A stretch of DNA of 21,184 bases from a virus. The notes beneath the pieces were generated by a model. It searched no databases. It was not told where the DNA came from and was given only the letters and a program-made list of their open reading frames with translations. How positions within the stretch are numbered: the first letter of the stretch is position 1; each line of letters starts with the position of its first letter. The stretch is taken from positions 1 through 21,184 of IMG/VR virus record IMGVR_UViG_3300027712_000183. One strand, written 5' to 3'. Positions 1 to 19,966 of the stretch are shown here, piece after piece. The position numbers and the translations under genes are program-made.

Positions 1-1
1 C

Positions 2-805
2 GGCTCATGCACGTGGCAATGGCACGCGGATTTATCAAAATGGATCAAGGTCTCTGGCGGTAACGGCACGTGCTCGACGGGGTGCTCGTGCTCGTATCCG
101 AGTAGCAATGGCACGACGGATGGGGAGTATGCGACGCCAGCTTGCAAACGGTTGACGTGCATGAAGTGCTGCGGGAATGCCTTATGCTGTCCAATAAATG
201 TATCGTGCTGTAATCCGTCAAAACAATTGCCAAAAATTCTTAATTTAACATTTTCAGATTTATATAATTATTGGCCTTGCGCAGACGGAAAAACAATTAG
301 TTTCCATTATTTAGGCACAACAAATTATTCTGGTTATCGCGTCTCTACTTATTATAGATCTCAAGTAGAACCATCTCCATATAATACTGCTTTGCTTTGT
401 TCTGGAGAAGGATATTACACATTAGGCGATTCAAATCCTGCTTGCAATCAAACGCCAAGACGTGATTGCAATACTGACGTTATGTTGGCTGGAGATATTA
501 GTATTTATGATCCAATTACTGATAATTCTGAATGCAAAATTCAAATTAATGTTTATCCATTAGTTAAGGCTAGATCTTATGCTTTTTACCCATGTGTTTT
601 ATTAGATTGCCCAAATTTTTATTTGGGTACAACAATATCATTAAATGGTGCAAGACAATCTTTTGGATGTGGTGTTATAAATTACACATTTGAATTATCA
701 GTTAAAAAATGCAATGAAATTATTTCGCCAACGTTATGCCCTGCAACATTTGTTTATTATGGTGCCACTGGTACTGGTACTATTATGGCCACGGTGACCG
801 AATGA
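2..805 (+). CDS. Cysteine-rich virion-type protein, N-terminus outside the window
   Basis: The frame is open from base 2, so the gene starts upstream and only the last 267 codons are seen. The first visible part is dense in Cys, Gly, Ser and Thr (CSTGCSCSYPSS, then CMKCCGN and CCP), followed by a region rich in Tyr, Asn and beta-branched residues with paired cysteines about every 20-40 residues. This suggests an extracellular or particle-exposed, disulfide- or metal-stabilised beta fold. No catalytic motif is visible. Base usage changes sharply near base 200: upstream codons are GC-rich like the neighbours, and about 200-770 is AT-rich. The stop overlaps the next start (ATGA at 802-805), so the two genes are translationally coupled. 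A phage structural or adhesion role is inferred from context. Function is not recognised. Confidence 0.75.
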   Translation, partial: GSCTWQWHADLSKWIKVSGGNGTCSTGCSCSYPSSNGTTDGEYATPACKRLTCMKCCGNALCCPINVSCCNPSKQLPKILNLTFSDLYNYWPCADGKTISFHYLGTTNYSGYRVSTYYRSQVEPSPYNTALLCSGEGYYTLGDSNPACNQTPRRDCNTDVMLAGDISIYDPITDNSECKIQINVYPLVKARSYAFYPCVLLDCPNFYLGTTISLNGARQSFGCGVINYTFELSVKKCNEIISPTLCPATFVYYGATGTGTIMATVTE

Positions 806-1191
806 AACCTTGCAACCACACACCACCGCGCGACGGATGCCGACTTTGCTGGCTCTACGATCACGACCCTCGCTATCGAGCGCTCTGGGGCGGAGATCCG
901 GCAACCGTGGCAACATCGGTCACAACTACGGGCGCGACGCCGCCAGCTCCGGACAGAGCTCCGGGCTTAAGTCCGGAGCAGCTCGATATGCTGCGCCGGA
1001 TTAAACTGCACATGTCCTCGCCATGCCAGCACCTAGGCGAGGCTCTCGAGGACAAGCCATCGTGCGGGTGCGGAGGTACTCTCGCCATCAAGCATGCGTG
1101 CTCTGTTCATGGCCAGTGCCGGATCTCTTCGAGAGACAAGGCGCTGCCGAACTGCATCGACTGCGACAGTTATGTGGCACGGGTTCTGTAA
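802..1191 (+). CDS. Small CxxC/CxH protein, probable zinc-binding
   Basis: A 129-residue protein whose ATG overlaps the upstream stop. The N-terminus has C-x2-C spacing (CRLCWLYDHDPRY). A Pro/Ala/Thr-rich linker leads to a second cysteine block near residues 74-125: CQHLGEAL, CGCGG, KHACSVHGQC and NCIDCDSY. Paired CxC, HxxC and CxxC motifs suggest one or two zinc knuckles. In planctomycete phage-like clusters I recall such a C..H..C..CxxCxxY module beside, or fused to, family 2 glycosyltransferases, and the next gene here is a GT2. It may be the detached N-terminal module of that enzyme. Family recall is from memory; no search was possible. Confidence 0.75.
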   Translation: MKPCNHTPPRDGCRLCWLYDHDPRYRALWGGDPATVATSVTTTGATPPAPDRAPGLSPEQLDMLRRIKLHMSSPCQHLGEALEDKPSCGCGGTLAIKHACSVHGQCRISSRDKALPNCIDCDSYVARVL

Positions 1192-1228
1192 GAAAAACTA
1201 CCACCAATTCCTTACATCTGGAGTGCTA

Positions 1229-2095
1229 ATGTCCGACCCTGTCCTGACGATTGGCATGGCCGCATTCAACGACGATCAGGGTGTATGGTGGACGCTCAGC
1301 GCCATCCGCGCATATCACGTCGAGCTGTCTCGGGACGATGTCGAGCTGCTGGTCATCGATGATGCGCCAGTGAGCTCCAAGGAGCTTGTGGCTGTCTGCG
1401 GGCACACCAAGACGAGGTACGTCCACAAGCCCAAGGGCAAAGGCCCGGCTCACGCCAAGAACTCCATCTGGGAAGAGGCACGGGGCACTCACGTCTTGAT
1501 GATCGACTGTCACGTTCTGTTAGGGCCGGGATCTGTGGACTATCTGGTGTCGGCAGCCGAGGGCCAGGCATCGAGGCGCGACATGTGGGTCGGACCGCTG
1601 CGGAGCGAAGGCGGACACCTCGTCGCCACCGAGCTGCTGCCAGAGCTGCGCGGCGACTTCTATGGTGTCTGGCATGTCGGCCCGCATGAGCCACACGAGG
1701 TGCACGCTCACGGCTCGGCGTATGCGTTCATGGCGAAAGCAGCATGGCCTGAGTTCAGTAACGACTTTCGCGGATTCGCTGGCGAAGAGATCTACATACA
1801 CGACAAAGTTCGTCGCAATGGTGGCAAGGTCATGTACCACCCAAGGCTCGAGTGGGTGCACAGGTTCCCACGCTTCGGGCCTGTCACGTATCCGCTGACG
1901 CTCAACGACAAGCTGCGCAACTACTGCATCGCGGCATACGAGATGGGCTGGAACGTCGGCCAGATGCGACAGTATTTCGGGCGCAAGCTACCTACCGACC
2001 AGAGCTCCGCAGTCGAGGCCGAGCTACTGGCGCTCCATCCGGACATCTGGGCGCCTGAGCGATCGACGGCAGGTCTAGTGCGGGCACACGATTAG
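1229..2095 (+). CDS. Family 2 glycosyltransferase-like protein
   Basis: 288 residues from ATG 1229. The frame is open upstream to 1094, but that extension lies inside the preceding gene, and the start at 1229 follows a TGGAG box. The N-terminal half fits a GT-A nucleotide-sugar-binding fold: a first strand (VLTIGMAAFND), an acidic strand (VELLVIDDAP), a Gly/Lys-rich turn (HKPKGKGPAHAKN) and a strand ending in MIDCH, in the position of the DxD metal-binding motif but reading D-C-H. A later segment (GFAGEEIYIHDKVRRNGGKVMYHPRLEWVHR) matches the acceptor-side E/D motif and trailing basic motif of GT2 enzymes. It probably transfers a sugar to a phage structural protein or host surface polymer; donor and acceptor are unknown. 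There is no membrane segment or signal peptide. Confidence 0.8.
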   Translation: MSDPVLTIGMAAFNDDQGVWWTLSAIRAYHVELSRDDVELLVIDDAPVSSKELVAVCGHTKTRYVHKPKGKGPAHAKNSIWEEARGTHVLMIDCHVLLGPGSVDYLVSAAEGQASRRDMWVGPLRSEGGHLVATELLPELRGDFYGVWHVGPHEPHEVHAHGSAYAFMAKAAWPEFSNDFRGFAGEEIYIHDKVRRNGGKVMYHPRLEWVHRFPRFGPVTYPLTLNDKLRNYCIAAYEMGWNVGQMRQYFGRKLPTDQSSAVEAELLALHPDIWAPERSTAGLVRAHD

Positions 2096-2122
2096 TTACT
2101 CTGTCCTCATGGAGGACAATCA

Positions 2123-2368
2123 ATGGAAGTTATCCCGTTCATCCGAGAATTTGGCCTGCCGGTAGCGGCACTGTGTGCCATCGCCTACGGCACCTGGCAC
2201 ATCGCCCAGTGGATCGGCACGCAGGTCGTGATCCCTCTGCGGGACAGGCACTTTGCGTTCCTTGCAAGCCTCGAGGCGACGCTTGATGCGATCGCTCGGA
2301 CGCAGTCCCAGATGGTGCAGGAGATCGAGCGTGTGAGCAATTCTTGCCGCAACGGAGTGACTAAATGA
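2123..2368 (+). CDS. Small single-pass membrane protein, holin-like candidate
   Basis: 81 residues, preceded by a strong ribosome-binding site (GGAGG, about 8 bases before the ATG). Residues about 9-35 (FGLPVAALCAIAYGTWHIAQW onward) form one hydrophobic helix. The rest (LRDRHFAFLASLEATLDAIARTQSQMVQEIERV) is an amphipathic, probably coiled-coil helix. This topology is seen in small phage membrane proteins such as holins and spanin-like or injection-associated proteins. Nothing in the sequence selects one role, so the holin suggestion is inference from size, topology and proximity to the protease gene. Its stop overlaps the next start (ATGA at 2365-2368). Confidence 0.7.
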   Translation: MEVIPFIREFGLPVAALCAIAYGTWHIAQWIGTQVVIPLRDRHFAFLASLEATLDAIARTQSQMVQEIERVSNSCRNGVTK

Positions 2369-3006
2369 TCCTGATGCTGGTGTTGATGTGCGGACAGAAG
2401 GTGGAGCTGCCTGCTGAGATCAGGGGAGAGGTGGGTTCGTTTATTGCGGTTAGGCCGAAAACGGACGGTAAGCTCGTTAGATACTATTCGCTGGATGCCG
2501 GACTTAATTCATTCCCTGCCGAATTATTGTCCGATGCGACAGCGACCGTAGTCACCGCGCCACGTGCTGGCCGGTATCGACTCCTGGCATACACCGCTCT
2601 CGGTGATCGTCCATCTGATCCAGTCATCGTCACCATCGTCGTCGGCGGAGCCGCTCCACCACCAGTGCCGACACCGGGCGAGTACGAGCGCTCGCTGCTC
2701 GACATCTACGGTGCACTGCAGGACTCAGACCGAGACGCCACCCGCATTGCGCTGGCCAAGGTCTACCGATCCTGTGTTACGGAATGTATGGGATCGCATG
2801 CAACTGCCGGCGATTTGTATCAGGCGCTGGTCAAGATCGCTGCTGCCGTGCCGGCCACCAAGCTGAGCACCCTGCGTGATCGAGTCGGCGCCGAAGTGGC
2901 GAAGATCGCCCCCAACGATCCAACCGCAACCATCACCGCAGCACAGCGCGCATCCGTCGGGGACATATACGAGCGCACAGCCACCCTGCTGGAGTCCATT
3001 CGATGA
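2365..3006 (+). CDS. Ig-like plus helical-domain protein, function unknown
   Basis: 213 residues. A short hydrophobic N-terminus (MILMLVLMCG) could be a weak signal or anchor, but has no convincing cleavage site. Residues about 13-92 alternate as beta strands and end in GRYRLLAYTALGD and VIVTIVVGG, which resembles an Ig-like or PKD-like domain. A Pro-rich linker (APPPVPTPGE) follows, then an Ala/Leu/Arg-rich all-helical domain (about 105-213). Both ends are coupled to neighbours: its start overlaps the upstream stop, and its stop (TGA 3004-3006) overlaps the ATG of the protease gene. A surface or particle role is plausible, but I do not recognise a family. Confidence 0.7.
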   Translation: MILMLVLMCGQKVELPAEIRGEVGSFIAVRPKTDGKLVRYYSLDAGLNSFPAELLSDATATVVTAPRAGRYRLLAYTALGDRPSDPVIVTIVVGGAAPPPVPTPGEYERSLLDIYGALQDSDRDATRIALAKVYRSCVTECMGSHATAGDLYQALVKIAAAVPATKLSTLRDRVGAEVAKIAPNDPTATITAAQRASVGDIYERTATLLESIR

Positions 3007-3887
3007 ATTACGAGATGGGCTGGGTGCGAGATGACGATGCCGTCGCTCAACTGCTGACCGAGCTGCCGGAGCCTAACTGGCGGGTCACGCAGGCGGGCGA
3101 GCAGATCGCAGATCTACCCGATCACGTGTACCTGTGGGATGTGGCTCGCAAAGTCACCGGCAACTTGCTCCGACCATGGAGTCAGGGTCAGGTCGGGTCG
3201 TGCGTGAGCTTCGGAACTGCGCGCGCCATCGAATATAGCATGTGCTGCGAGATCGCTGCCGGCGAGCCTGAAGAGTTCCGCAGCCTATGCCAAGAAGCTA
3301 TCTACGGTGGCAGCCGTGTCGAGGTCGGCGGGGGCAAGCTGCGAGGTGACGGCAGCACAGGTAGCTGGGCTGCTAAGTGGGTGTCTCAGTGGGGCCTGAT
3401 CGATCGCGGCGTCCACGGGAGCTACGACCTCTCGGAGTACAGCGTCGACAGGTGCAAGAAGTGGGGGATCTCTGGCGTCCCGGATGACCTTGAACCGCTG
3501 GCTCGCACGCACCCTGTCTCGGTGACGCAGGTCACCTCGTGGGGCGGAGCGATGCGGATGCTGGCCAATGGCTACGGCATTGCGATCAGCAGCTCTCAGG
3601 GATTCTCAATGGTGCGTAACCAATACGGAATCTGCCAACCATCCGGATCGTGGGCGCACTGCATGTGCCTGGCTGGATACGCCACCATCAACGGCGAGGT
3701 TTGCGGCCGCATCGACAACTCATGGGGCCCGTCGTCGCACACCGGACCAGTCGGCCCAGGTGATCCCGGTCCCGAGGGCTTCTACGCATCGGGAGCCACC
3801 ATCGACAAGATGCTTAGGCAGGGCGACTCGTGGGCGTTCAGTGCAGTGCAAGGGTTCCCGTCTCGTCGCATCAACTGGGTGATATAA
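3003..3887 (+). CDS. Papain-like (C1 family) cysteine peptidase
   Basis: 294 residues. The papain active site is complete in order: QGQVGSCVSF gives the oxyanion Gln61 and nucleophile Cys67 with the usual six-residue spacing; WAHCMCLAGY gives His219; and RIDNSWG gives Asn239 in the NSWG motif typical of C1 peptidases. No signal peptide or long inhibitory propeptide is present (about 55 residues precede the active-site segment). Extra cysteines at 81, 82, 96, 151, 211, 220, 222 and 234 could form disulfides or bind metal. In a phage it could process virion proteins, attack host surface proteins or aid lysis; the sequence does not say which. It starts by ATGA overlap with the gene before it and is followed by a GGAG box for the next gene. 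Confidence 0.9.
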   Translation: MNYEMGWVRDDDAVAQLLTELPEPNWRVTQAGEQIADLPDHVYLWDVARKVTGNLLRPWSQGQVGSCVSFGTARAIEYSMCCEIAAGEPEEFRSLCQEAIYGGSRVEVGGGKLRGDGSTGSWAAKWVSQWGLIDRGVHGSYDLSEYSVDRCKKWGISGVPDDLEPLARTHPVSVTQVTSWGGAMRMLANGYGIAISSSQGFSMVRNQYGICQPSGSWAHCMCLAGYATINGEVCGRIDNSWGPSSHTGPVGPGDPGPEGFYASGATIDKMLRQGDSWAFSAVQGFPSRRINWVI

Positions 3888-3896
3888 GGAGAGATT

Positions 3897-4229
3897 ATGC
3901 CATATAGCAGTCCGCTACCAACAGAGCTAGACTTCGCAGCCGTCCGCGTGCTGATGGACTTCGCTCGCACCAAAGAACCGTTTGGTCGGCCTGTCGTCGA
4001 GGCAGCCTACAACCTGCTCGGGTATGCGCTCAATGTCACAGTACCACCACGACTCGTCGGTGGTGATATCCCAGATCCGATCAGTATGGACGCTGGCGCA
4101 ATCGCTGCGCTGGAGAGTCTGTCTGATCAGGAATCACAGCATCAGATAGCTGCCGGACTCATTCCGTGGACGCTGCTGGCGTCTTGGCTGGTCCAGCGAG
4201 TGATCGACCGATGGTTAGCAGGGCGCTAA
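3897..4229 (+). CDS. Hypothetical protein, 110 residues
   Basis: Starts at an ATG preceded by AAGGAGAG, a good ribosome-binding site. The N-terminal half is helical (ELDFAAVRVLMDFARTKEPF, VVEAAYNLLGYAL). A Pro/Gly-rich stretch follows, and the C-terminus (LIPWTLLASWLVQRVIDRWLAGR) is a hydrophobic or amphipathic helix that could contact a membrane. No known motif is visible. It ends one base before the HNH gene, in the same operon as the protease and membrane protein. Confidence 0.65.
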   Translation: MPYSSPLPTELDFAAVRVLMDFARTKEPFGRPVVEAAYNLLGYALNVTVPPRLVGGDIPDPISMDAGAIAALESLSDQESQHQIAAGLIPWTLLASWLVQRVIDRWLAGR

Positions 4230-4230
4230 T

Positions 4231-4551
4231 ATGCTGAGCTCATTCCGCTGGTCCATGATCTGGGGCGGTACACCACGCAGCAGTCACTGGTCCACATTCC
4301 GCATCAACTTCTTGCGCGGCCGATCTTGTAGCGGTTGCGACTCAACGCGCGAGCTAGAAGCGCATCATATCGTGCCGTTCCACATTGATCCTGCGCGCGA
4401 ACTCGATGTGGACAACCTGATCCCGCTATGTCGTGAGTGCCACTACCAGATAGGTCACCTACGCGACTGGCAGACAGCTAACCCGCATGTGCGTGATGAC
4501 GCGGCGGTATACCTGCAGAGGACTCTAGAGTTCGGAAGACGAGATACGTGA
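4231..4551 (+). CDS. HNH endonuclease-like protein
   Basis: 106 residues with a complete HNH layout: a CxxC pair (Cys33, Cys36), the catalytic-strand motif LEAHHIVPFH (His45/His46), the middle Asn in DNLIPLC (Asn62), and the closing CxxCH (Cys67, Cys70, His71). The four cysteines would hold a structural zinc. HNH proteins are common in phages as homing endonucleases or packaging partners. It stands alone at the end of the left operon, immediately before a hairpin terminator, so a free-standing endonuclease is as likely as a packaging role. It starts one base after the upstream stop. Confidence 0.88.
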   Translation: MLSSFRWSMIWGGTPRSSHWSTFRINFLRGRSCSGCDSTRELEAHHIVPFHIDPARELDVDNLIPLCRECHYQIGHLRDWQTANPHVRDDAAVYLQRTLEFGRRDT

Positions 4552-4608
4552 TGCGTGCTGACGCACACGCCACCCCGGTCACCATGGATGGGGCCGGGGT
4601 TATTTATT
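4552..4608. terminator. Tandem hairpins between convergent HNH and integrase genes
   Basis: Two hairpins lie in the 66-base gap between convergent genes. The first is TGCGT-GCTG-ACGCA (4552-4565). The second pairs ACCCCGG (4572-4578) with CCGGGGT (4594-4600), extendable by T-G and C-G pairs, with a loop containing CCATGG. It is followed by TTATTTATT, a partial U-tract for the plus strand. It is best read as a terminator for the left operon. The first hairpin, with its GCTG loop, recurs upstream of the primase gene (see 9082-9126). Confidence 0.65.
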
Positions 4609-4617
4609 GATAGCGCG

Positions 4618-5754
4618 TCATCCCCACTTTTCGACAACTGCCTCAACTCTTCGCCTCGGCACAGCAGCATACCTGCCGGTGATCGTGCCGGAGCCGGTGG
4701 ACATCGAGTCATCATCACCCTTGCCGTGGTGCCCCATGATGGCTCCGATAATCGGCTCGGGTACCATGCGATCGATTAGATACGTGGCAGCCGTGTGACG
4801 CACTTGGCGCGGCGTGTAGTGCGGGATGCCAGCGCGAACGCAGGCTCGCTCCATGGCGGCGGCATATCCGGAGTACTGCCTAGGCCCTCGGTAGATGGTG
4901 CCTGGCACGGCGGACCGGCCCGGAAACAAAAATGATTTTGCCAGCATCAACGGCTTGATCACTGCACGGGCTCGAGGCCCGACGAGGATGGTGAGATCCA
5001 ATCCCTTGGCCAGTCCCTTGTGCTGCCTCGGAACGTACTGCCATGGGTGTCGCTGTTGGTCGATCTGGTCAGCCGTGACACTCAGCGCAGTCTCGACCCG
5101 CTGAGCAGTGAGGATGTGAAATAAGAAAACTTTCTTCCAGCCGGTCGGCAGCTCTCTGAACAACTTGAACAGGTGCGAGCGAGGTATGCCGCGCACGACT
5201 TTTTTTGCCCGACCTTGATCTCCGCGCATGTTCGGAATCTTTTCCAGTCTCAGAATATGCTCAGAATTTATCCACTCACGATCTGAGCCGAACTTGAACA
5301 TGCGCACTATGCGTGAGATGTAGTGCTTGATCGTTGAACGACTTTTCCCTGTCGCTACCAGCTGGTCCCTGATGCTGATCAGGTGTGCGCGGCTGAACTC
5401 ATCGATGGGTTGATCGGCGAACGGCATCAGCAGTGACGCAGCCTGCTGGCAGATCCCGACCTCGCCAGTCGCCTTGCCATCGGCTCGGCGATAGGTCTGT
5501 CTGCAGTACTCCAGCCAGCGTGTTGCGAGGTGACCGATAGTGGGTGGAGCGGCTGCAATCGCAGGGATTATCTGCATTTCTCGAACGAAGTCTGCCAGCC
5601 AGGTGGCGTACTTGGTCTGGGTCTCAACGCCACCCCATGGACCCATGTAGATTTGGTTCCCGGTGCGCGGGTCGGTGACGTATGCAAAGTCTTTGAGCTT
5701 GTTGCGGCAGAGCTTCGGCAGCCGCTTGGGTCTGGTTTTCTGAGTCTTGCCCAT
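4618..5754 (-). CDS. int: Tyrosine recombinase / phage integrase
   Basis: 378 residues on the minus strand. It catalyses site-specific recombination between phage and host attachment sites. The N-terminal part (about 1-60) is basic and could bind arm sites. About 72-165 is a core-binding SAM-like domain. The catalytic domain follows, with Arg219 (TAQRVETAL), Lys246 (RQHKG), the box II motif TPRQVRHTAAT with Arg319, Gly341-His342 and the nucleophile Tyr362 (GRYAAV). The first position of box II, His in most family members, is Arg316. About 19 residues rich in Gly, Asp and Ser separate the GH from the Tyr, more than usual. Two copies of TTCTGAGTC lie at the start of the gene (5738-5746 inside, 5758-5766 just upstream), so the enzyme could bind its own promoter. 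It sits next to the att core, the expected place. Confidence 0.95.
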   Translation of the reverse strand: MGKTQKTRPKRLPKLCRNKLKDFAYVTDPRTGNQIYMGPWGGVETQTKYATWLADFVREMQIIPAIAAAPPTIGHLATRWLEYCRQTYRRADGKATGEVGICQQAASLLMPFADQPIDEFSRAHLISIRDQLVATGKSRSTIKHYISRIVRMFKFGSDREWINSEHILRLEKIPNMRGDQGRAKKVVRGIPRSHLFKLFRELPTGWKKVFLFHILTAQRVETALSVTADQIDQQRHPWQYVPRQHKGLAKGLDLTILVGPRARAVIKPLMLAKSFLFPGRSAVPGTIYRGPRQYSGYAAAMERACVRAGIPHYTPRQVRHTAATYLIDRMVPEPIIGAIMGHHGKGDDDSMSTGSGTITGRYAAVPRRRVEAVVEKWG

Positions 5755-6000
5755 TATTTCTGAGTCGTCTTTTTGCCCCGAAACCTTCTGAAACCACTTG
5801 TTTTGTAGATCGGGGCGACTGGATTTGAACCAGCGACCTCTTGCACCCCAAGCAAGTCCACAAAGCAGTTAAAGTGCTTATCAGTAAGGCCTTATGGCAA
5901 AGACAACACCTCCTGTAGTAGATAAAAAACTTCGACAATCTGAGACTCAGAAAACCATTTTCTGAGTCATTCTGAGTCGATGCCAGATCAGATTCAGAAA
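5738..6000. other. Attachment region (attP-like) with arm-type repeats
   Basis: This 263-base region holds a tRNA-derived core (5810-5857) between clusters of the 9-mer TTCTGAGTC. Direct copies lie at 5738-5746 and 5758-5766 (20 bases apart) on the integrase side, and at 5960-5968 and 5970-5978 (10 bases apart) on the far side. An exact inverted copy is at 5944-5952, and an inverted copy with one mismatch at 5992-6000. Spacing in multiples of about one helical turn on both sides of a core is the layout of lambda-type attP arms bound by the integrase N-terminal domain. The 10-bp palindrome TAAGGCCTTA (5885-5894) also lies here. The gene-free stretch 5755-6150 contains this region and, further right, the leader of the excisionase-like gene. 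Confidence 0.75.
5810..5857 (-). other. 3' half of tRNA-Pro(GGG): integration core
   Basis: Read on the minus strand this is the 3' two-thirds of a tRNA. It has anticodon stem CTTGC/GCAAG around the 7-base loop TTGGGGT (anticodon GGG), variable loop AGGTC, T-arm GCTGG-TTCAAAT-CCAGT, the 3' acceptor strand CGCCCCG, and discriminator A at 5810. No CCA is encoded. The 5' half (acceptor CGGGGCG and D-arm) is missing: sequence beyond 5857 has no D-loop and no complementary strand. This is therefore a tRNA fragment carried by the phage, as in elements that integrate into a tRNA gene and rebuild its 3' end. It is not expected to make a working tRNA here. Confidence 0.88.
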
Positions 6001-6096
6001 CTGTAAAAAAAAACATTTGTGCGAAAGATTTTTCTTGCAATTAAAAAATCTGGTCCATATCGTTTCTTTATCGAGATAGAGTTCTCGGCCCCAACC

Positions 6097-6147
6097 GATG
6101 GATCGGATGGTCTTTCTGATGGATCTTAAACCCCAGTCCCGTGGGGT
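6097..6147 (+). promoter_or_regulatory. Direct repeats and leader hairpin before the excisionase-like gene
   Basis: The octamer GATGGATC occurs twice (6097-6104 and 6118-6125), 21 bases apart, or two helical turns, which suits an operator or a pair of protein-binding sites. Just downstream, ACCCCA (6130-6135) and TGGGGT (6142-6147) form a perfect 6-bp hairpin ending three bases before the ATG at 6151. It covers the place where a ribosome-binding site should be, so it could limit translation. No protein can be assigned to these sites from sequence. Confidence 0.4.
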
Positions 6148-6150
6148 AAA

Positions 6151-6510
6151 ATGACTCTGCTTTCAATTTCTGTTATCGCCAAAATGCTTGATGTTTCTCC
6201 CACCACTATCCGCTCATGGATAATCGTCGGCCGACCCATCTACGGCAAGGTCGAGTACCTGCACGGATTTCAGGCTGGAACGATGTGGCGCGTCTCAGAA
6301 TCTGAGCTGCAGCGTTTTCTGAGTTCGATTCAAACCTCACCCCGTGCACGTCGTGTTAATATAGGGGGAGGGGGGATAGCGCAGACTAGGCAGGGCGAGG
6401 GCTCGGCTATTCTGGCGCGCGCTCTGGCGGCTGGTCGGAAGCGGCCAGCGCCGACGCCAAAAACTCCACTCCTGACGGTGTCGATGCAAGATCCGGTGCA
6501 ATCGCCTTAG
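6151..6510 (+). CDS. Excisionase-like helix-turn-helix protein
   Basis: 119 residues. The N-terminal 55 residues fit a MerR/excisionase-type winged helix: LSISVIAKMLDVSPTTIRSWI is a helix-turn-helix, followed by a wing (VGRPIYGKVEYLHGFQAGTMWRV) and SESELQRFLSS, the closing helix common in Xis and AlpA-like proteins. The C-terminal half is basic, Gly/Ala/Pro-rich and probably disordered. Beside the integrase and att region, a recombination directionality factor is the natural role; a repressor is the alternative. The last 104 bases overlap the antisense gene ending at 6407. Copies of the arm-site motif with one mismatch (6317-6325) and a related palindrome CTCAGA-A-TCTGAG (6294-6306) lie inside it. 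Confidence 0.75.
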   Translation: MTLLSISVIAKMLDVSPTTIRSWIIVGRPIYGKVEYLHGFQAGTMWRVSESELQRFLSSIQTSPRARRVNIGGGGIAQTRQGEGSAILARALAAGRKRPAPTPKTPLLTVSMQDPVQSP

Positions 6511-6673
6511 CCAACATTCTGAGTGACATGTGAACGATGTCGCTTTGCGTCATCGTGTCCCCTGTCCGCTCCCTAATCCTCTGCTCCAAGCCAACCAGCA
6601 AATCGTGCACCACTGCACGGACACGTATTTGTCCGTCTTTGCGTTCGTCTGGTTGTTTTGCGCGTCGTGCCAT
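6407..6673 (-). CDS. Ribbon-helix-helix-like DNA-binding protein, candidate repressor
   Basis: 88 residues on the minus strand. After a basic N-terminus (MARRAKQPDERKD) comes a possible beta strand (GQIRVRAVV), helix LLVGLEQRIRERTG, a turn, and helix TQSDIVHMSLRMLAKAI. That is the order and length of a MetJ/Arc-type ribbon-helix-helix domain, but the match is by pattern only. A GGGAGG box lies about 13 bases upstream, a little far. It is transcribed away from the rightward promoter near 6740-6780 and converges with the excisionase-like gene, overlapping it tail to tail by 104 bases. This position suits a lysogeny regulator acting on the nearby palindrome. The reading could be wrong if the frame is a shadow. 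Confidence 0.6.
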   Translation of the reverse strand: MARRAKQPDERKDGQIRVRAVVHDLLVGLEQRIRERTGDTMTQSDIVHMSLRMLAKAIAPDLASTPSGVEFLASALAASDQPPERAPE

Positions 6674-6739
6674 GTCGCAATGCTAGACCTCCCGACCCGG
6701 CGCCGAAATGGGAAAATCAAAATATTTGTAACTTAGCCG

Positions 6740-6780
6740 TTGACGCTGTGCCGACATAGTGCATACAACAGTTGGCACAG
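6740..6780 (+). promoter_or_regulatory. Early rightward promoter with overlapping palindromic operator
   Basis: TTGACG (6740-6745) is a good -35 box. TACAAC (6764-6769), 18 bases further, is a fair -10 box. An inverted repeat overlaps this promoter: CTGTGCCGAC (6746-6755) and GTTGGCACAG (6771-6780) match at 9 of 10 positions, separated by 15 bases. The arms lie just inside the -35 and just past the -10, so a dimer bound there would block RNA polymerase. It would drive the long early operon that starts at 6794. The repressor is not shown; the RHH-like gene at 6407-6673 is the nearest candidate. Confidence 0.6.
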
Positions 6781-6793
6781 GGAGCGGTTAGCG

Positions 6794-6916
6794 ATGTGGA
6801 AAATAATCGGGATCGGGATCGCCCTCTGTACTACTGGGTGCTCCCACATTCAGACCGAGATCCAAGTGTCGTATCAGTCCGGTGGCACATCTGTGACCAC
6901 CACTATCAGGAGATAA
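6794..6916 (+). CDS. 40-residue lipoprotein-like peptide
   Basis: A short frame, ATG 6794 to TAA 6914-6916. The N-terminus MWKIIGIGIALCTTGCSHIQ has a charged residue, a hydrophobic core and a cysteine at position 16 preceded by T-T-G, a passable lipobox. The mature part would be only about 25 residues, rich in Ser, Thr and Gln. A GGGAG box precedes the ATG at suitable distance, and the AGGAGA at its 3' end serves the next gene. It is the first gene after the early promoter. Secreted lipopeptides from prophages can mediate superinfection exclusion, but that role here is speculation. Confidence 0.6.
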   Translation: MWKIIGIGIALCTTGCSHIQTEIQVSYQSGGTSVTTTIRR

Positions 6917-6919
6917 ACC

Positions 6920-7162
6920 ATGAGCTACAGCAGCAGGATCGAGAGACTTGAGTCGGAGCTGACAGGATTGATTATGTACCGACGCGATCAGATCAGTAAG
7001 CGCAGTCGGGCGCATGCCTGCGGCAGTACCAGCATTTTTAGATTTTACTGCCGGAACATAGCAAAAGCAGACGAGGCGATCAGCCGGCTACACGAGTCAC
7101 TCGAGATAGCACGCTGCTCGACTATCCGATGGACAGTGACAACTCCTGTGGAGGTCGCCTAA
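6920..7162 (+). CDS. Hypothetical early protein, 80 residues
   Basis: The ATG at 6920 follows AGGAGATAAACC, a clear ribosome-binding site. Two helical stretches (SSRIERLESELTGLIMYRRDQISKRSR and AKADEAISRLHESLEIAR) have heptad-like spacing and may form a coiled coil or helical hairpin. Charge is mostly basic. No domain is recognised. The stop TAA (7160-7162) overlaps the csrA start as TAATG, and GTGGAGG near its end serves as the csrA ribosome-binding site. Confidence 0.7.
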   Translation: MSYSSRIERLESELTGLIMYRRDQISKRSRAHACGSTSIFRFYCRNIAKADEAISRLHESLEIARCSTIRWTVTTPVEVA

Positions 7163-7359
7163 TGCTGTGCCTGTCAGCCCGTCCAGTGTCGTGTGGTGGA
7201 GAGACCATCGTACTCAAGACTGCGCATGGAGACATCTCATTGGTCATCGCTGACATCGATGGAGGCAGAGTTCGCATTGGCATTCATGCTCCGGCAGATG
7301 TCAAGATAGTGCGAGTTAAACAAGTAATTAATAAACTTAAGCAGGAGGTTGTTACGTGA
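7162..7359 (+). CDS. csrA: CsrA-type translational regulator
   Basis: 65 residues from ATG 7162, the usual CsrA length. The open frame extends to 7129, but the overlap TAATG with GGAGG upstream marks 7162. Family features are visible: MLCLSARPV at the N-terminal strand, GETIVLK, and the core GGRVRIGIHAPADVKIVR, which matches the VRIGxxAPxxVxVxR signature; Arg51 corresponds to the RNA-binding Arg44. About three extra residues lie between strand 1 and GET. CsrA dimers bind GGA-containing leader RNAs and block or stabilise mRNAs. In a phage it could redirect host gene expression or time phage genes. Its own stop overlaps the next start. Confidence 0.87.
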   Translation: MLCLSARPVSCGGETIVLKTAHGDISLVIADIDGGRVRIGIHAPADVKIVRVKQVINKLKQEVVT

Positions 7360-7595
7360 TAAAAAACTTCCCGCGGCCAGTGGTCTGGACTCGCGACAGC
7401 CTGGGCCGAGCGATCCAGATACCACCCGATATTAAAGTATGCAACTGCTCGAGGTGCAATAGGCTATGTGTGCGCAGGTGGTACATGTCTGATCCGCAGG
7501 TCAGCGAGCTGGTCGATACGGGATGGGTCTGTCTTTACGGTCGTCACGTCGATGGCCGTCCAGTATGTGTGGGATGTTTTGAGGAGATGAAGTGA
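7356..7595 (+). CDS. Small zinc-ribbon-like protein
   Basis: 79 residues starting at GTG 7356, which overlaps the csrA stop (GTGA). Cysteine pairs CNCSRC (about residues 29-34) and CVGC (about 71-74) bracket a Trp/Tyr-rich middle (RRWYMSD, DTGWVCLYGRH), so it probably binds one zinc. No enzymatic motif. The stop overlaps the next start (GTGA), keeping it within the coupled early operon. It might bind nucleic acid or a host protein; I do not recognise a family. Confidence 0.7.
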   Translation: MIKNFPRPVVWTRDSLGRAIQIPPDIKVCNCSRCNRLCVRRWYMSDPQVSELVDTGWVCLYGRHVDGRPVCVGCFEEMK

Positions 7596-8341
7596 GCAGA
7601 TTAAGCAATATCCAGAAGGGGCCTAGCAACCTAGCGCCACGCATAGTTATCTATGGCACCGAAGGTATCGGCAAGTCGACCTTTGGATCGCAGGCACCAA
7701 CGCCCATTTTTATCCAGACAGAAGATGGCCTTGGGCAGATTTCTGTAGACAAGTTTCCGGTGGCGCTAAAGCTCAGCTCGGTGCTCAGCGATCTGCAAGC
7801 ACTCGAGGATAACGACCACCAGTACGGCACTGTCGTGATCGACTCGCTGGACTGGCTCGAGCGCCTGATATGGGATCACATCTGCACCGAGTACAGCGTT
7901 GCATCGATCGAGCTGGCGGCCGGCGGGTATGGCAAGGGATATGTGCAGGCTGTCCGCATATGGCGCGACATCCTTGGGCATCTAGACCGGCTACGTGATC
8001 GACGCGGTATGTGTGTAGTATGCGTAGCGCACGCCAAGATTGAGCGCTTCGAGGATCCCGAGTCTGCCTCATATGACCGCTATGCGCCACGTCTGCACAA
8101 GCTGGCATCTGGGCTGATATGCGAGTGGGCAGATGCTGTCCTTTTCGCTACACGTAAGATCCGAACTCTCGAAGAGAAGACCAAAGCCGGCACGCGGGTG
8201 ATAGCGTCTTCGGTGAAGGGTGCCGAGGACCGTGTCCTTCGCACTGTGGGGGGGCCAGCATGCGTGGCCAAGAACCGGTTCGGTATCCAGCAGGACATCC
8301 CTCTGTCCTGGGATGCCTTCATGACATCTATGGGAGCCTAA
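7592..8341 (+). CDS. RecA-fold ATPase, Sak4-like (AAA_24)
   Basis: 249 residues from GTG 7592. The P-loop GTEGIGKST lies at residues 22-30. The Walker B strand GTVVIDSLDWL has Asp84. A later strand (GMCVVCVAHAKIERF) carries the polar and His residues seen after motif B in phage RecA-like proteins. This is the PF13479-type ATPase found in many phages and called Sak4, which helps single-strand annealing and recombination together with a DNA-binding protein. The next gene is the expected partner, a DUF669 protein. No transmembrane part. The domain is complete and the length is typical. Confidence 0.87.
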   Translation: MSRLSNIQKGPSNLAPRIVIYGTEGIGKSTFGSQAPTPIFIQTEDGLGQISVDKFPVALKLSSVLSDLQALEDNDHQYGTVVIDSLDWLERLIWDHICTEYSVASIELAAGGYGKGYVQAVRIWRDILGHLDRLRDRRGMCVVCVAHAKIERFEDPESASYDRYAPRLHKLASGLICEWADAVLFATRKIRTLEEKTKAGTRVIASSVKGAEDRVLRTVGGPACVAKNRFGIQQDIPLSWDAFMTSMGA

Positions 8342-8346
8342 ACGAT

Positions 8347-8964
8347 ATGAATCTGAAAGAATTCGATCTGCCTAATGTGACACCGATGCAGCCTCGGACA
8401 TCTGAGCCGCTGCCGCCGGGAGACTACATGGTCGAGATTATCGAGGCGAAGGAGATGGCGAACAAGAAGACTGACGGTACCCATCTGAGCCTGACATTCC
8501 GCGTCATGGACGGTGACTACCGGAGGCGCCAGCACTGGCAGCGGCTCAACCTCAAGAACTCCAATCCCATGGCGAAGGAGATGGCCAAGGCTGAGTTAGC
8601 CTCGATCGCCGTGGCTGTCGGCATCCCTAATCCAGAAGACTCGAGCGAGCTATGCAGCATACCGCTATCGATAACAATCGCACACAAGAAGAGAACAGAT
8701 GGTACCGGAGGCACAGACGCATCAATAGTTGCGTACCGCCCCGCTGGCGAGCATCCGGGAGATGAGGCACAGGCTGCCGCAGCGTTCTCCGCCTTCTCAA
8801 GTGGCAGCAAGCCGGCAGCAAAACCAGCAGCTCGCTCGCCCGTGCAGCCGCCAATCGCACCACCCAGACGTCCATCGTGGGGAGCTAGGCAGGCTAATCC
8901 GCCCTACCAACCAGTAGCAGCCAAGACCGACGACGATATGGATGCAGCCGACATTCCGTTCTAA
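8347..8964 (+). CDS. DUF669-like ssDNA-binding protein with SSB-type tip
   Basis: 205 residues from ATG 8347. Residues about 1-130 fit the DUF669 family: LPPGDYMVEIIEAKEMANKKTDG, LSLTFRVMDGDYRRRQHWQRLNL and a C-terminal strand block. The family is usually found beside Sak4-type ATPases and is thought to bind single-stranded DNA. The tail is Pro/Ala-rich, disordered and ends DDDMDAADIPF, very like the acidic tip by which bacterial SSB recruits replication proteins. I infer that this protein takes the SSB role for the phage. No Cys cluster or catalytic motif is present. Confidence 0.83.
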   Translation: MNLKEFDLPNVTPMQPRTSEPLPPGDYMVEIIEAKEMANKKTDGTHLSLTFRVMDGDYRRRQHWQRLNLKNSNPMAKEMAKAELASIAVAVGIPNPEDSSELCSIPLSITIAHKKRTDGTGGTDASIVAYRPAGEHPGDEAQAAAAFSAFSSGSKPAAKPAARSPVQPPIAPPRRPSWGARQANPPYQPVAAKTDDDMDAADIPF

Positions 8965-9081
8965 GTCATTGAGCCATGGGTTGGGTGAGTATGGATATCG
9001 GCAGGGTTGTGGTCGACTTCTTAGTACAGCTGATGCGCTGCCTGTCGACGACCTGAAAGCCCAACCTATTGATCGTTCCAC

Positions 9082-9126
9082 GCGCGTGCTGACGCGCACC
9101 CCGACCGGGCGGGGCCATGGATGGCC
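9082..9126. repeat. Hairpin cluster upstream of the primase gene
   Basis: The 198-base gap 8965-9162 contains GCGCGT-GCTG-ACGCGC (9082-9097), CCCCG-ACCGGG-CGGGG (9099-9114) and the palindrome-like GGCCATGGATGGCC (9113-9126). The first hairpin has the same loop as the one at 4552-4565 but different stem pairs, and both sites are followed by a G/C hairpin and CCATGGATGG. No U-tract follows, so this is more likely a processing, attenuation or protein-binding site than a terminator. The primase ATG at 9163 has its own AAGGAGG box. Nothing else is seen in the gap. Confidence 0.5.
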
Positions 9127-9162
9127 AACCCGACAATATAGATTGACGACAAGGAGGTTGAG

Positions 9163-11268
9163 ATGGACGAGGATCTGCTGCTCGATGCGGCTCTTAAATA
9201 CGCGCGCTTGGGCTATCCTGTTTTTCCGGCCAAGCCGGGCAATAAGTTCCCGATCATTACTGGCGGTCGCAACTCTGCCACAACAGGCCAGCAGCAGATT
9301 AAGGCATGGTGGACGCAGTGGCCCAACGCCAACATTGGGCTCAATACTGACAGCCTTGTCGTGGTCGACATCGACGGTCTGGATAATGCGTGGCCAGCAG
9401 ATCAAGAGGCTGGAGCGCAGCTCGCCGAAGTGCCCACCAGCATGACGCCAAATTCTGGGCGGCACCATGTGTTTCGGCAACCCCAGGGTAAGCGCTGGCG
9501 CAGCACGGCCAGTCGCCTCGGTGAGCATGTCGACACTCGTGCTTATGGTGGCTACATCATTGTGCCACCGAGCCAATTACCTGCCGGCCAGTACCACTGG
9601 ATTGATGGCCTCGAGCTCGATGTTCCGGCGCAAGAACTTAAGGAACCACCGCCGTGGCTGGCAGCCATGCTCGACGATCTTGAGAACGGCACACGCCTGA
9701 CGCCTATCGGAAACACCACCGCAGGCGACGGCAACGCCATCGGATCTGGCCAGCGCAATGTGGCCTTGGCGCGGTTAGCGGGCAGCATGCGGTCAAAGGG
9801 CATGACGAAGGCTGAGATCTTTGCAGCCATATCGGTGGTAAATGCCGACCGATGCAACCCGCCACTTGATGATATCGAAGTTCGGAAGATTGCTGAGAGC
9901 GTGGCGCGCTATGAGCCCTCGCAGATATTCACGGCCTTTAGTGAAGACCATTGGGGGGCCAACGTGCAAGCGGTCCAGGAAGAGGCTAAGCAGACGCCGG
10001 CAACGGATAATGTGTGCGATCCCGGCGCATTCCCGGAAGACTTGCTCGAAGTGCCCGGCCTTGTCGGCGCAGTCATGGATTACATCGAGCAGTCAAGTTA
10101 TCGTTCTCAGCCAGTGCTCGCTCTTGCTTCTGCGATCAGCCTGATGTCGCTGCTGACCGGACGCAAGGTGCGGGATGCAGTAAACACTCGACCAAACATC
10201 TACTCCATTGGCGTGGCTGCATCTGGAGCAGGAAAAGAAAGTGGGCGCAGTGCCATCAAGAGCCTGCTTGTCGCAGCCGGTGGAGCTCAGCACATCGGTG
10301 AAGGTCTGGCTTCGCACACGGGGCTGGTGAACACCATGGGCCAGCAACCCTCGATGATTTGGCTAATCGATGAAGTGGGGCGGTGGCTACGGTCGCTCAA
10401 TGCGAACGCCGAAAAAGCACCACCACATCTGGCAGGAATTATCAGCAATCTGATGAAGTTCTACACTTCGTCTGGCGGCGTGTATCTGGGTGACCATTAT
10501 GCGGACATCAGTAATCGTGTTATTATCAACCAGCCGAACGTAGTACTCTATGGCACGACAGTACCGGAAAGTCTGTTTCACGGGCTGACTTCGGAATCAA
10601 TCGCTGACGGATTCTTGAACCGCGTGTTTATATTTGAGACGCCAGATATCCACGCAAAGAAAAAGAAGCCGACGTTATTTGAACCACCCGAGGGTCTTGC
10701 GCTTGATTGCCAGGGCTGGCTGGCGTGGCGCCCATCCCCCGGGAACCTGAGCGAGATTAATCCTCGCACCATGATAGTGCCAGCAACTATGTCTGCCGAA
10801 GCACTCTTCGAGAATTTCGATAATCATGTCGAGGAGCGACAGGAGAAGGAGCTGAAGCCCTTTGGTGCGCTGTGGGCGCGCACAGTCGAGAAGGCGCGCA
10901 AGCTAGCCCTTATCTATGCGTGCTCGACCGCTACGCCTGGCGAAGCATTTACCATCGATGAGGCTGCCGTCACATGGGCCTGCCGAGTCTCGGAGTATCT
11001 CACCCTGCGACTTATCTGGCTCGCCAAGACTTGGATCAGCGATGGCCCCTTCGACTCACGGCGGAAGCGAGTGCTGCGGGTGCTGCGTGACGCTGGCAAG
11101 GGAGGGATGACGCGCACTGAACTTAGCCGTCGCACTCAATCACTACGGCCGGCGGAACGCGAAGAGGTGATTGCGTCTCTGGTCCAGTCTGGAGAGATTG
11201 AATTAGTACAAATAGAAAAAATTGGCGCAGGTCGTCCGGCAGCTCGCCTTGTTTGCCTAGATTTATAG
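9163..11268 (+). CDS. Prim-Pol / DUF3987 primase-helicase
   Basis: 701 residues, ATG preceded by AAGGAGG. Residues about 5-165 are a bifunctional primase-polymerase (Prim-Pol, PF09250) domain: FPAKPGNKFP, the metal-binding LVVVDIDG (Asp69, Asp71), GRHHVF (His101/102) and VDTRAYGGYIIVPPS. Residues about 195-255 resemble a PriCT_1 domain. From about 285 a DUF3987-type helicase ATPase domain follows, with the P-loop ASGAGKES (Lys358) and Walker B-like MIWLIDE (Asp403, Glu404). The P-loop has Glu359 where Ser/Thr is usual. The last 60 residues (RRKRVLRVLRDAGKGGMTRTELSRR, then a Gly/Arg-rich end) form a winged helix. It should open the origin and lay down primers. An AT-rich repeat region lies just downstream. 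Confidence 0.9.
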   Translation: MDEDLLLDAALKYARLGYPVFPAKPGNKFPIITGGRNSATTGQQQIKAWWTQWPNANIGLNTDSLVVVDIDGLDNAWPADQEAGAQLAEVPTSMTPNSGRHHVFRQPQGKRWRSTASRLGEHVDTRAYGGYIIVPPSQLPAGQYHWIDGLELDVPAQELKEPPPWLAAMLDDLENGTRLTPIGNTTAGDGNAIGSGQRNVALARLAGSMRSKGMTKAEIFAAISVVNADRCNPPLDDIEVRKIAESVARYEPSQIFTAFSEDHWGANVQAVQEEAKQTPATDNVCDPGAFPEDLLEVPGLVGAVMDYIEQSSYRSQPVLALASAISLMSLLTGRKVRDAVNTRPNIYSIGVAASGAGKESGRSAIKSLLVAAGGAQHIGEGLASHTGLVNTMGQQPSMIWLIDEVGRWLRSLNANAEKAPPHLAGIISNLMKFYTSSGGVYLGDHYADISNRVIINQPNVVLYGTTVPESLFHGLTSESIADGFLNRVFIFETPDIHAKKKKPTLFEPPEGLALDCQGWLAWRPSPGNLSEINPRTMIVPATMSAEALFENFDNHVEERQEKELKPFGALWARTVEKARKLALIYACSTATPGEAFTIDEAAVTWACRVSEYLTLRLIWLAKTWISDGPFDSRRKRVLRVLRDAGKGGMTRTELSRRTQSLRPAEREEVIASLVQSGEIELVQIEKIGAGRPAARLVCLDL

Positions 11269-11273
11269 GCAAA
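11252..11273 (+). terminator. Stem-loop over the primase stop codon
   Basis: TTTGCCTA (11252-11259) and TAGGCAAA (11266-11273) form a perfect 8-bp stem with a 6-base loop. The stop codon is inside it. No run of T follows at once, so it may slow ribosomes or mark an RNA end rather than terminate by itself. The repeat at 11285 ends with TTTTTT and could supply termination a little further on. Confidence 0.4.
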
Positions 11274-11284
11274 TCATGGCACCG

Positions 11285-11470
11285 GTGAATTAATTAATTA
11301 TTACTAGGTCACCTTTTTTCTTACCGGGGCCAATAAGTGAATTAATTAATTATTACTAGGTACCTTTTACCAGAAAACACTGTAATCCTCGTACGGAGAA
11401 AGCCAGAAAAGAGGCGACCTAGTAATAATTAAATAATTATTATATATATTATTTTTATATTATATTTAAT
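11285..11470. other. Candidate replication origin: repeats with AT-rich stretch
   Basis: Two identical 25-base direct repeats (11285-11309 and 11337-11361, 52 bases apart) read GTGAATTAATT...ACTAGGT and both continue with ACCTTTT, the first with one extra C. A third copy lies inverted at about 11407-11432; its reverse complement matches the first copy at nearly all of its last 26 positions. The inverted copy runs into an almost pure A/T stretch to about 11470. Repeats plus an AT-rich unwinding zone, immediately after the primase-helicase gene, is the usual layout of a phage or plasmid origin. Alternatives are a bidirectional terminator pair or operator sites, since each repeat ends in a T-run. 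The gene-free gap 11269-11557 contains nothing else I can call. Confidence 0.6.
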
Positions 11471-11557
11471 GCTATCCAAACATGTTAGCCATGATCGTGA
11501 CGGCAGTTTATTAGAGTCTGGTTGGGGCGTGGAACAGTTGGTCGAAGGAGAGAGTGG

Positions 11558-12148
11558 ATGAGCTTAGTTGTCGCATGCGATGTGGATATAGAGGCACGGG
11601 GCAATGAGTGGGGCGAGGTTACGTCGGGCAAATACGAGGATGAAGAAGCAGCCTGTGAGCATTTTGACAGATTGGCCATTGCTGCTGGCTGGATCGTGCA
11701 CAAGGAAGTCGTTGGCGAGTGCCGACAGCCGCGACTAGGTGTTGAGCACAAAAGCCATTACCGCATAGATCGGATTCTCGAGCCGACTGCAGCGCTTTGG
11801 CGAGGTGGATGGAATCGTGGCTTTGTCGGAATAGAGATTAAGCGCTCAAGGGAAAAGCTTGGGCCAGTCATTGCTCAAGTAATTGATTATGCCCGTTGCG
11901 CATGGTTTATCAGCGGCGGTAGGTGGGTCGAGTGCGAATACAATTTCATCTTCCCATGCGAGAAGGTCAGTGGAAACACATTAAGCATTATGACATCCCA
12001 GAAGATTGGTGTCGCAATGCCTAGGGTTGATTGGGGTGGTGACAGGCAAGTCAGTTTAGCGCTGATCTTTGGTGGGCGATTATGTCATTTCCGTGACAAG
12101 AATGTAGACATGAGTCAAATGGGTGGCAACAAGGCGGGATCAAGATGA
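11558..12148 (+). CDS. PD-(D/E)XK-like nuclease
   Basis: 196 residues from ATG 11558, preceded by AAGGAGAG. A longer frame from TTG 11522 has no ribosome-binding site. The nuclease core can be traced: an N-terminal helix (ACEHFDRLAIAAGW), RIDRIL with Asp71, the strand FVGIEIKRS with Glu93 and Lys95 (E-x-K), then the helix VIAQVIDYARCAWF with Gln107 and Asp110-Tyr111. This order is that of PD-(D/E)XK enzymes, which in phages act as exonucleases, resolvases or restriction-like nucleases. The C-terminal third is beta-rich and unknown. Placement after the primase and origin suggests replication or recombination. The assignment is by motif only, and substrate is unknown. Confidence 0.65.
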   Translation: MSLVVACDVDIEARGNEWGEVTSGKYEDEEAACEHFDRLAIAAGWIVHKEVVGECRQPRLGVEHKSHYRIDRILEPTAALWRGGWNRGFVGIEIKRSREKLGPVIAQVIDYARCAWFISGGRWVECEYNFIFPCEKVSGNTLSIMTSQKIGVAMPRVDWGGDRQVSLALIFGGRLCHFRDKNVDMSQMGGNKAGSR

Positions 12149-12386: not shown

Positions 12387-12653
12387 ATGAAGGTAACGAT
12401 CAGCGTCGAGAACAACGGGCTGGACATCGAGGTGTCGCACAACGACGCGGAGCGGACGGTCAGTCTGGTCTGCATGCGCGACAGCCACACCGTGCTCGCG
12501 GGCACTCTGGAGATCGCCGAGGCAGACACCCTCGGGTACGTGCTACAGACGATCGCCGAGGGGCTCCGGCACACGTCGGACGACATAGAGAGTGATGATG
12601 ACGACGACGATGATGACACTGACGAAGACGACGACGGCAATGTCCCGAAGTGA
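12387..12653 (+). CDS. Small protein with polyacidic tail
   Basis: 88 residues from ATG 12387 with TTTGGAGG upstream. Residues 1-70 read as a small alpha/beta domain (MKVTISVENNGLDIEVSHND, VSLVCMRDSHTVLAG, LGYVLQTIAEGL). The last 20 residues are almost all Asp/Glu/Ser from a GAC/GAT trinucleotide tract, ending GNVPK. A polyacidic tail can mimic DNA or bind basic proteins, so an inhibitor or chaperone-like role is possible. The tail overlaps the start of the sigma-factor gene (ATG 12640) in another frame. Confidence 0.65.
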   Translation: MKVTISVENNGLDIEVSHNDAERTVSLVCMRDSHTVLAGTLEIAEADTLGYVLQTIAEGLRHTSDDIESDDDDDDDDTDEDDDGNVPK

Positions 12654-13182
12654 ACTATTGCAATTATTCACCGAGAATATCCGGCTCGTCTACAAAGCTT
12701 GTCAGGTATACAAGCCAGCCAAGATGGACAAGGACGACTGGGAGCAGGAGTGCATGCTGTATCTGCTGGAGCACCTTGAGTACTTCGATCCGGTTCGGTC
12801 TTGCTGGACGACATACGTCTACCTCATGGTCTGGTCCTGCTGCACACGGATCAGTCGACGCCTGAAAACGCGCCGGCACATTAGCGGACAGAGTATCTCC
12901 GGATCTGTGCGGGAGGATGGCAGCGAGATCATTCAGCTTCTGGCTCGAGACGAGTCCGACAGATTGGACGAGATGATCGATGCCGAGGACCGTGTCCGAC
13001 TGTTGAGATCCAAGGCTAGGCGTGGAGTCCAACCAATAATCGACGCCATGCTGTCCGACAAGTCGATGGCGAGCGTTTCTCGGGATCTGGGTGTCAGCAG
13101 GCAATCGATCAATGAGCGATGGCGCAAGTGTGTAATGGACTGGCGGGAGGGCATGCGTGATGGAAGGATCTGGATCGACTGA
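12640..13182 (+). CDS. Sigma-70 family-like RNA polymerase factor
   Basis: 180 residues from ATG 12640. An earlier in-frame start at 12592 would read through the acidic tract as Met/Thr repeats and is unlikely. Residues about 8-75 fit sigma region 2: NIRLVYKACQVY, DDWEQECMLYLLEHLEYFDP and TTYVYLMVWSCCTRISRR, the promoter -10 and core-binding part. Residues about 125-165 (GVQPIIDAMLSDKSMASVSRDLGVSRQSINERWRK) fit a region 4 helix-turn-helix that reads the -35 box. The middle is short and charged, as in group 4-like factors. A phage sigma factor in the early operon is a natural switch for late genes. It overlaps the gene before it by 14 bases and the gene after it. Confidence 0.8.
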   Translation: MSRSELLQLFTENIRLVYKACQVYKPAKMDKDDWEQECMLYLLEHLEYFDPVRSCWTTYVYLMVWSCCTRISRRLKTRRHISGQSISGSVREDGSEIIQLLARDESDRLDEMIDAEDRVRLLRSKARRGVQPIIDAMLSDKSMASVSRDLGVSRQSINERWRKCVMDWREGMRDGRIWID

Positions 13183-13921: not shown

Positions 13922-14232
13922 CCATCTCCAATGAGCGACTTAATGCGATCGAGGCCGCGCACTTGCACAAGGGCCTTCAGTCGACTCACTGGGATGGATG
14001 CGAGCTCGATCACGCGGGGTGCGCGGTCGGGGTTCTGATGCAGTACATCGATGAGCTGAGAGACAAGCTCCGAGACTGCTGGTTACTGGGAGTATCGGAT
14101 GATCCTGACACTGTTAACCCGAGAACTACGCCAAGGCCTGAAGCGCCTAAAGCCGATAGGGCAAAAGACAGCCAAGGGCGAACCCGTAAGCGTCCGCATC
14201 CAGGCAGACGCAAGCCTCGGCCAACGGATTAG
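13918..14232 (+). CDS. Hypothetical protein upstream of the sliding clamp
   Basis: 104 residues from ATG 13918, overlapping the previous stop. The N-terminal about 60 residues look folded: NERLNAIEAAHLHKGLQS, CELDHAGCAVGVLMQYIDELRDKLRD, with Cys/His that could bind metal. From about residue 61 the frame overlaps the clamp gene for 134 bases and becomes Pro/Arg/Lys-rich. This is the second case in this cluster of a long out-of-frame tail. Function unknown. Confidence 0.6.
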   Translation: MTISNERLNAIEAAHLHKGLQSTHWDGCELDHAGCAVGVLMQYIDELRDKLRDCWLLGVSDDPDTVNPRTTPRPEAPKADRAKDSQGRTRKRPHPGRRKPRPTD

Positions 14233-19965: not shown

Positions 19966-19966
19966 G

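Follow-up and report, generated by a model that had tools for sequence, protein, structure and literature searches.

Integrase, divergent HTH_17 gene and tRNA-Pro(GGG) segment

The window (the whole 21,184-nucleotide stretch of DNA analyzed here) carries a gene coding for a tyrosine integrase and, divergent from it, a gene coding for an HTH_17 protein, with a segment of tRNA-Pro(GGG) between them (Table 1). The integrase possesses the catalytic residues R219, K246, R319, H342, and Y362. The canonical first His of the HxxR motif is replaced by R316, in the window as well as in both phage relatives (G001 and G002, see below), and the equivalent residue varies (H, N, G, A, or Y) among the integrase relatives of Planctomycetota. 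The N-terminus (residues 1-65) was the least conserved part of the protein, with 51% compared with 67% for the catalytic part. No integrase match was obtained by tblastn in 50,697 phage and 72,556 plasmid records, and the integrase profile had no match among solved structures; the AlphaFold model reached a pLDDT of 42, too low to be used. The gene reads away from the tRNA segment, and the gap from the segment to its start codon is about 53-55 bases. The HTH_17 protein, given its weak profile matches, is probably an excisionase or a regulator, and a similar ORF occupies the same place in G002.

On the minus strand, positions 5856-5810 read 5'-CTTGCTTGGGGTGCAAGAGGTCGCTGGTTCAAATCCAGTCGCCCCGA-3' and correspond to tRNA-Pro(GGG) positions 27 (the start of the anticodon stem) to 73 (the discriminator base). 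A sequence-only reading of this DNA had reported all 3' parts of the tRNA here, namely the anticodon arm, variable loop, T-arm, acceptor strand, and discriminator, and each of them could be read. It had also reported the 5' half to be absent. In agreement with this, neither ARAGORN nor an Rfam covariance search (E<=1) predicted a complete tRNA anywhere in the window, indicating that the 5' half is truly missing; a null Rfam result is expected for half a gene. The length of 48 bases (5810-5857) given in that reading has to be corrected, since the shared segment comprises 47 bases and base 5857 lies outside it. The exact 47-mer was found only in tRNA-Pro(ggg) genes and in contigs with a homologous integrase, so a chance origin of the match is excluded on sequence grounds.

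DNA matches to this region in known phages were intact tRNA-Pro genes only, with about 80% identity, which are not comparable attachment sites. A hairpin between the 3' acceptor strand and the downstream TTTCGGGGC was set aside because G002 does not have that sequence. Promoter and terminator scans near the segment were uninformative, and no sigma-70-like promoter was found there.

Table 1. Features of the integrase region and of the tRNA-Pro(GGG) segment in the window.
Feature	Position	Strand	Evidence or remark
Tyrosine integrase, 378 aa	4618..5754	minus	PF00589 8e-08; PHROG integrase 4.9e-29
HTH_17 protein	6151..6510	plus	PF12728 1.7e-06; PHROG 66 excisionase/regulator 2.1e-05
Very probable attP core, tRNA-Pro(GGG) 3' 47 nt	5810..5856	minus	Exact in two phages and five Planctomycetota genes
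Anticodon stem 5' strand CTTGC	5856-5852	minus	
Anticodon loop TTGGGGT, 7 bases	5851-5845	minus	Anticodon GGG
Anticodon stem 3' strand GCAAG	5844-5840	minus	
Variable loop AGGTC	Between GCAAG and T-arm	minus	
T-arm GCTGG-TTCAAAT-CCAGT	5834-5818	minus	
3' acceptor strand CGCCCCG	5817-5811	minus	
Discriminator A	5810	minus	
Probable 7-bp strand-exchange (overlap) region TTGGGGT	5845..5851	minus	Compare start of attR copies in three related chromosomal elements
Probable core-type Int site (right) GCAAG	5840..5844	minus	Inverted repeat flanking the 7-nt loop
Probable core-type Int site (left) CTTGC	5852..5856	minus	Host identity begins exactly there in both phage lineages
Probable arm-type Int site GACTCAGAA	5738..5746	minus	Within first int codons
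Probable arm-type Int site GACTCAGAA	5758..5766	minus	4 bases upstream of int ATG
Probable arm-type Int site GACTCAGAA	5944..5952	plus	Exact copy
Probable arm-type Int site GACTCAGAA	5960..5968	minus	Position kept in G002, letters altered
Probable arm-type Int site GACTCAGAA	5970..5978	minus	Position kept in G002, letters altered
Possible degenerate arm-type site GATTCAGAA	5991..5999	plus	One mismatch

Phage relatives, probable host target and form of the site

A scan of IMG/VR showed the exact 47-mer in two contigs, G001 (33,741 bp) and G002 (35,075 bp), both of which code for a homologous integrase, 98% and 62% identical to that of the window, respectively. A profile scan of viral contigs revealed no integrase relatives beyond these two. 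Compared with G002, the flanks of the window were strongly diverged, whereas 47/47 core bases were identical and the identity ended abruptly on both sides. On the left, identity begins with the anticodon stem, at its first base, both in the two phage lineages and against all hosts.

The two ends of G001 overlap with 147/148 identical bases; they differ by a single C in a poly-C run, which is the probable reason for the listing of this contig as linear in the database. G001 is a relative of the window at the 92% level. Window positions 4622-6441 align to G001 1820-1, continuously through the site, and positions 6297-7359 align to G001 33741-32673, across the contig ends of G001. G001 therefore stands for a genome of about 33.6 kb that is circular or circularly permuted and in which phage DNA surrounds the site. 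Its genes include those for TerL, portal, prohead protease, HK97-type capsid, and connector. The TerL protein shares up to 53% identity with planctomycete chromosomal copies, while the maximum among 50,697 phage records is 47%, a difference in keeping with a planctomycete host. Since G001 is circular with the site internal, and the window is continuous with it on both sides of the site, the site in the window is read as an attP, as had been proposed from the sequence, and not as an attL or attR. The circular form proposed along with it is established for G001; the window is a linear fragment and has no end repeats, and a circular form would follow for it from that of its relative. The integrase does lie on the 3' side of the segment and phage-type genes on its 5' side, as had been stated, yet phage-type genes were found on both sides: positions 1-5754 carry integrase, peptidase, and HNH genes and are continuous with structural genes in G001, and the window also carries phage replication and tail-like genes.

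In a scan of 84,980 species genomes (GTDB), the exact 47-mer was detected in five contigs, all from Planctomycetota, one of them labelled Candidatus Kuenenia. All five matches sit in intact tRNA-Pro(ggg) genes with 47/47 identity through the tRNA 3' end, and identity to the host starts at the same base in each of the five genomes. The tRNA-Pro(GGG) target named by the sequence-only reading thus has a matching gene in host genomes, and no genome was met in which both flanks of the site in the window were chromosomal. None of the five genes has an integrase beside it, and the integrase profile had no match in these five genomes; they are empty attB-like sites. ARAGORN accepted the host 5' half joined to the phage core as a tRNA-Pro(ggg), while it did not accept the attP alone, which suggests that the gene would be made whole again by integration. 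No lysogen of this phage or of a near relative was found in the genomes scanned, so we infer its integration from these comparisons.

Integrated relatives were sought in Planctomycetota genomes alone, with an integrase profile built from three sequences, which matched 57 of the 392 genomes (E<=1e-12). At 24 of the 30 best loci, a tRNA gene lies just upstream of the integrase gene on the same strand. Nine of these are tRNA-Pro (four GGG), and the others are specific for Gln, Trp, Asn, Ala, Val, Leu, Lys, Gly, Arg, and Cys. In three genomes, the element at tRNA-Pro(GGG) has the full tRNA at one end; about 24.6, 2.8, and 17.7 kb downstream, at the other end, lies a displaced 3' fragment that measures 46, 46, and 39 bp, respectively. 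Each displaced repeat starts with the 7-base anticodon loop, either at its first base or at the base just before it, which is the attL/attR picture expected for strand exchange in the anticodon loop. The element in one of the genomes (G161) carries RadC and DUF932-like ORFs, and at least this element looks more like an island than a phage. Because these chromosomal relatives are distant and at least one is island-like, they support the general rule and not the lysogeny of this particular phage.

Our results indicate that the 47-bp segment is very probably the attP core of a temperate tailed phage whose integration target is the tRNA-Pro(GGG) gene of a Planctomycetota host. Three features of such sites were found, namely an adjacent tyrosine recombinase gene, identity to a host tRNA up to its 3' end, and element DNA on both sides. 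If the integrase side were host DNA, the site could be the attR of an integrated prophage, which would look much the same, since there too a 3' fragment is bordered by phage DNA on the 5' side. However, the integrase side (1-5754) is phage-like and aligns at 90-91% to the circular G001, which refutes an attR unless G001 is misassembled, and we regard this explanation as highly improbable. Decay is another way to arrive at a fragment that alone cannot make a tRNA: tRNA genes and relics are common in phages, and the segment might be a captured relic no longer used for integration. A relic would hardly keep 47/47 bases while the flanks diverged in G002, nor does it fit with an integrase and candidate arm sites placed symmetrically around the core or with related integrases at tRNA-Pro(GGG), so it is very unlikely.

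It is also conceivable that the attP belongs to an integrative plasmid or island, since related chromosomal integrases serve islands as well, for example in the G161 element. This is again highly improbable, given that the near-identical G001 has a full head module and the window has phage replication and tail-like genes. In the tRNA-dependent lysogeny known for actinobacteriophages, which also integrate at tRNA genes by means of a tyrosine integrase, the common core is about 8-10 bp, the host tRNA is broken by integration, and a phage-borne tRNA of the same isotype replaces it (PMC10865867). In contrast, the core described here is 47 bp long and would rebuild the tRNA, and the 21-kb window contains no tRNA gene, though one could lie in the unsequenced part of the phage; the probability of this kind of lysogeny is close to nil.

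Candidate arm-type sites and a model of integration

Exact copies of GACTCAGAA occur five times in the window and five times in the 33.6-kb circle of G001, all within about 240 bp of the core. Relative to the core start on the int strand, they are located at -122, -112, -96 (opposite strand), +90, and +110, and two of them overlap the start of int. In G002, a motif ACACAARAA is found at -122, -112, +103, +123, and +149; the upstream positions and the 10- and 20-base spacings are kept, while the letters differ. The GACTCAGAA motif was picked by eye after inspecting repeats, so its statistics are post hoc, whereas two diverged phages agree in the positions regardless of which motif is chosen. 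Judging from this comparison, the GACTCAGAA repeats probably serve the integrase as arm-type sites and have changed in step with its arm-binding domain.

From these data we infer the strand-exchange point, the arm sites, the role of the excisionase, the control of int, and the integration of this phage. The integrase would bind the inverted repeat of the anticodon stem as core-type sites and the GACTCAGAA repeats flanking the core as arm-type sites, and the strands would be exchanged within the 7-bp anticodon loop. As the phage copy reaches from the anticodon stem to the final base of the tRNA, an integration event would create at attL a complete tRNA-Pro that immediately precedes int and points in the same direction. 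The displaced 3' fragment would be left at attR, as seen in the related chromosomal elements. What the window shows is the form found after excision or in the virion. The likely excisionase is the HTH_17 protein encoded divergently across attP, and integration would place int and the HTH_17 gene at opposite prophage ends.

The model is similar to the Islander class A sites, the anticodon-loop class of tyrosine-integrase attP sites in tRNA genes, in which the element carries a 3' tRNA fragment, crossover takes place in the anticodon loop, the tRNA is rebuilt, and the integrase is adjacent (PMC4383910). It differs from them in its Planctomycetota host, in the tRNA-Pro(GGG) target, and in an integrase with no tblastn match in the phage and plasmid collections. 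A further parallel is KplE1, where IntS represses its own gene in an arrangement termed 'STI' (PMC2951348). As in KplE1, the tRNA would precede int on the same strand, the attachment site and the arm-type sites (candidates here) overlap the int start, and the int and RDF genes are in separate operons. Unlike in KplE1, the spacer between tRNA and int would be only about 55 bp, and the candidate arm sites reach into the int codons.

We tentatively suggest, while considering it somewhat doubtful, that integration itself might be the switch, through arm-type sites lying over the int start and an attP located between int and a divergent excisionase gene. In that case, the phage DNA on the upstream side of attP is where int would be read from in the circle, while in the lysogen int would lie 55 bases behind tRNA-Pro and be repressed by its own product, and the excisionase gene would be at the far prophage end. 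This would be a planctomycete version of KplE1-type control, with a recognizable arm-site code co-evolving with the integrase N-terminus.

The attP is real, functional-looking, and ordinary in kind, and its mechanism is a textbook one. The arrangement is well known, and what is new is the phage together with the probable arm-type sites GACTCAGAA. Sequence alone was enough to connect an uncultured phage lineage with a host phylum and, at base resolution, with a single chromosomal target, and temperate phages of Planctomycetota are little described in the literature searched. The attP core, the integrase, and the candidate arm sites form a compact module, which is a possible tool for site-specific integration in planctomycetes.

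Other features of the phage genomes and a chromosomal tRNA array

Two blocks of the window, 7590-12144 (replication genes) and 16266-20251 (a long tail-like protein), have little or no DNA match in G001, while the rest matches at 90-94%; this is typical of module exchange between sister phages. A DNA polymerase III sliding clamp (DnaN-like) is encoded at 14099-15220, near a sigma-70 region 2 protein (12592-13182). The region 17104-19965 codes for a protein of 953 aa with many repeats of a unit of about 24 residues, '(T)RTI.A..GTFTLTGI/Q.A.L'. It had no Pfam or PHROG match, and a role as a repetitive virion protein is probable.

On the shared map, the window (21184) and G002 (L016) stop on the right within about 50 bases of one another, just past a metallophosphoesterase gene, and terL is about 1.5 kb further on. 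Possible explanations are a cos or pac end used in packaging, or assemblies that broke off at a variable gene. In one Planctomycetota genome (L068-L069, G116:C68), about 34 tRNA genes are arrayed on one strand at contig positions of about 33289-38949, roughly 12 kb downstream of a tRNA-Pro(GGG)-integrase pair, and this array may be a mobile tRNA cassette.
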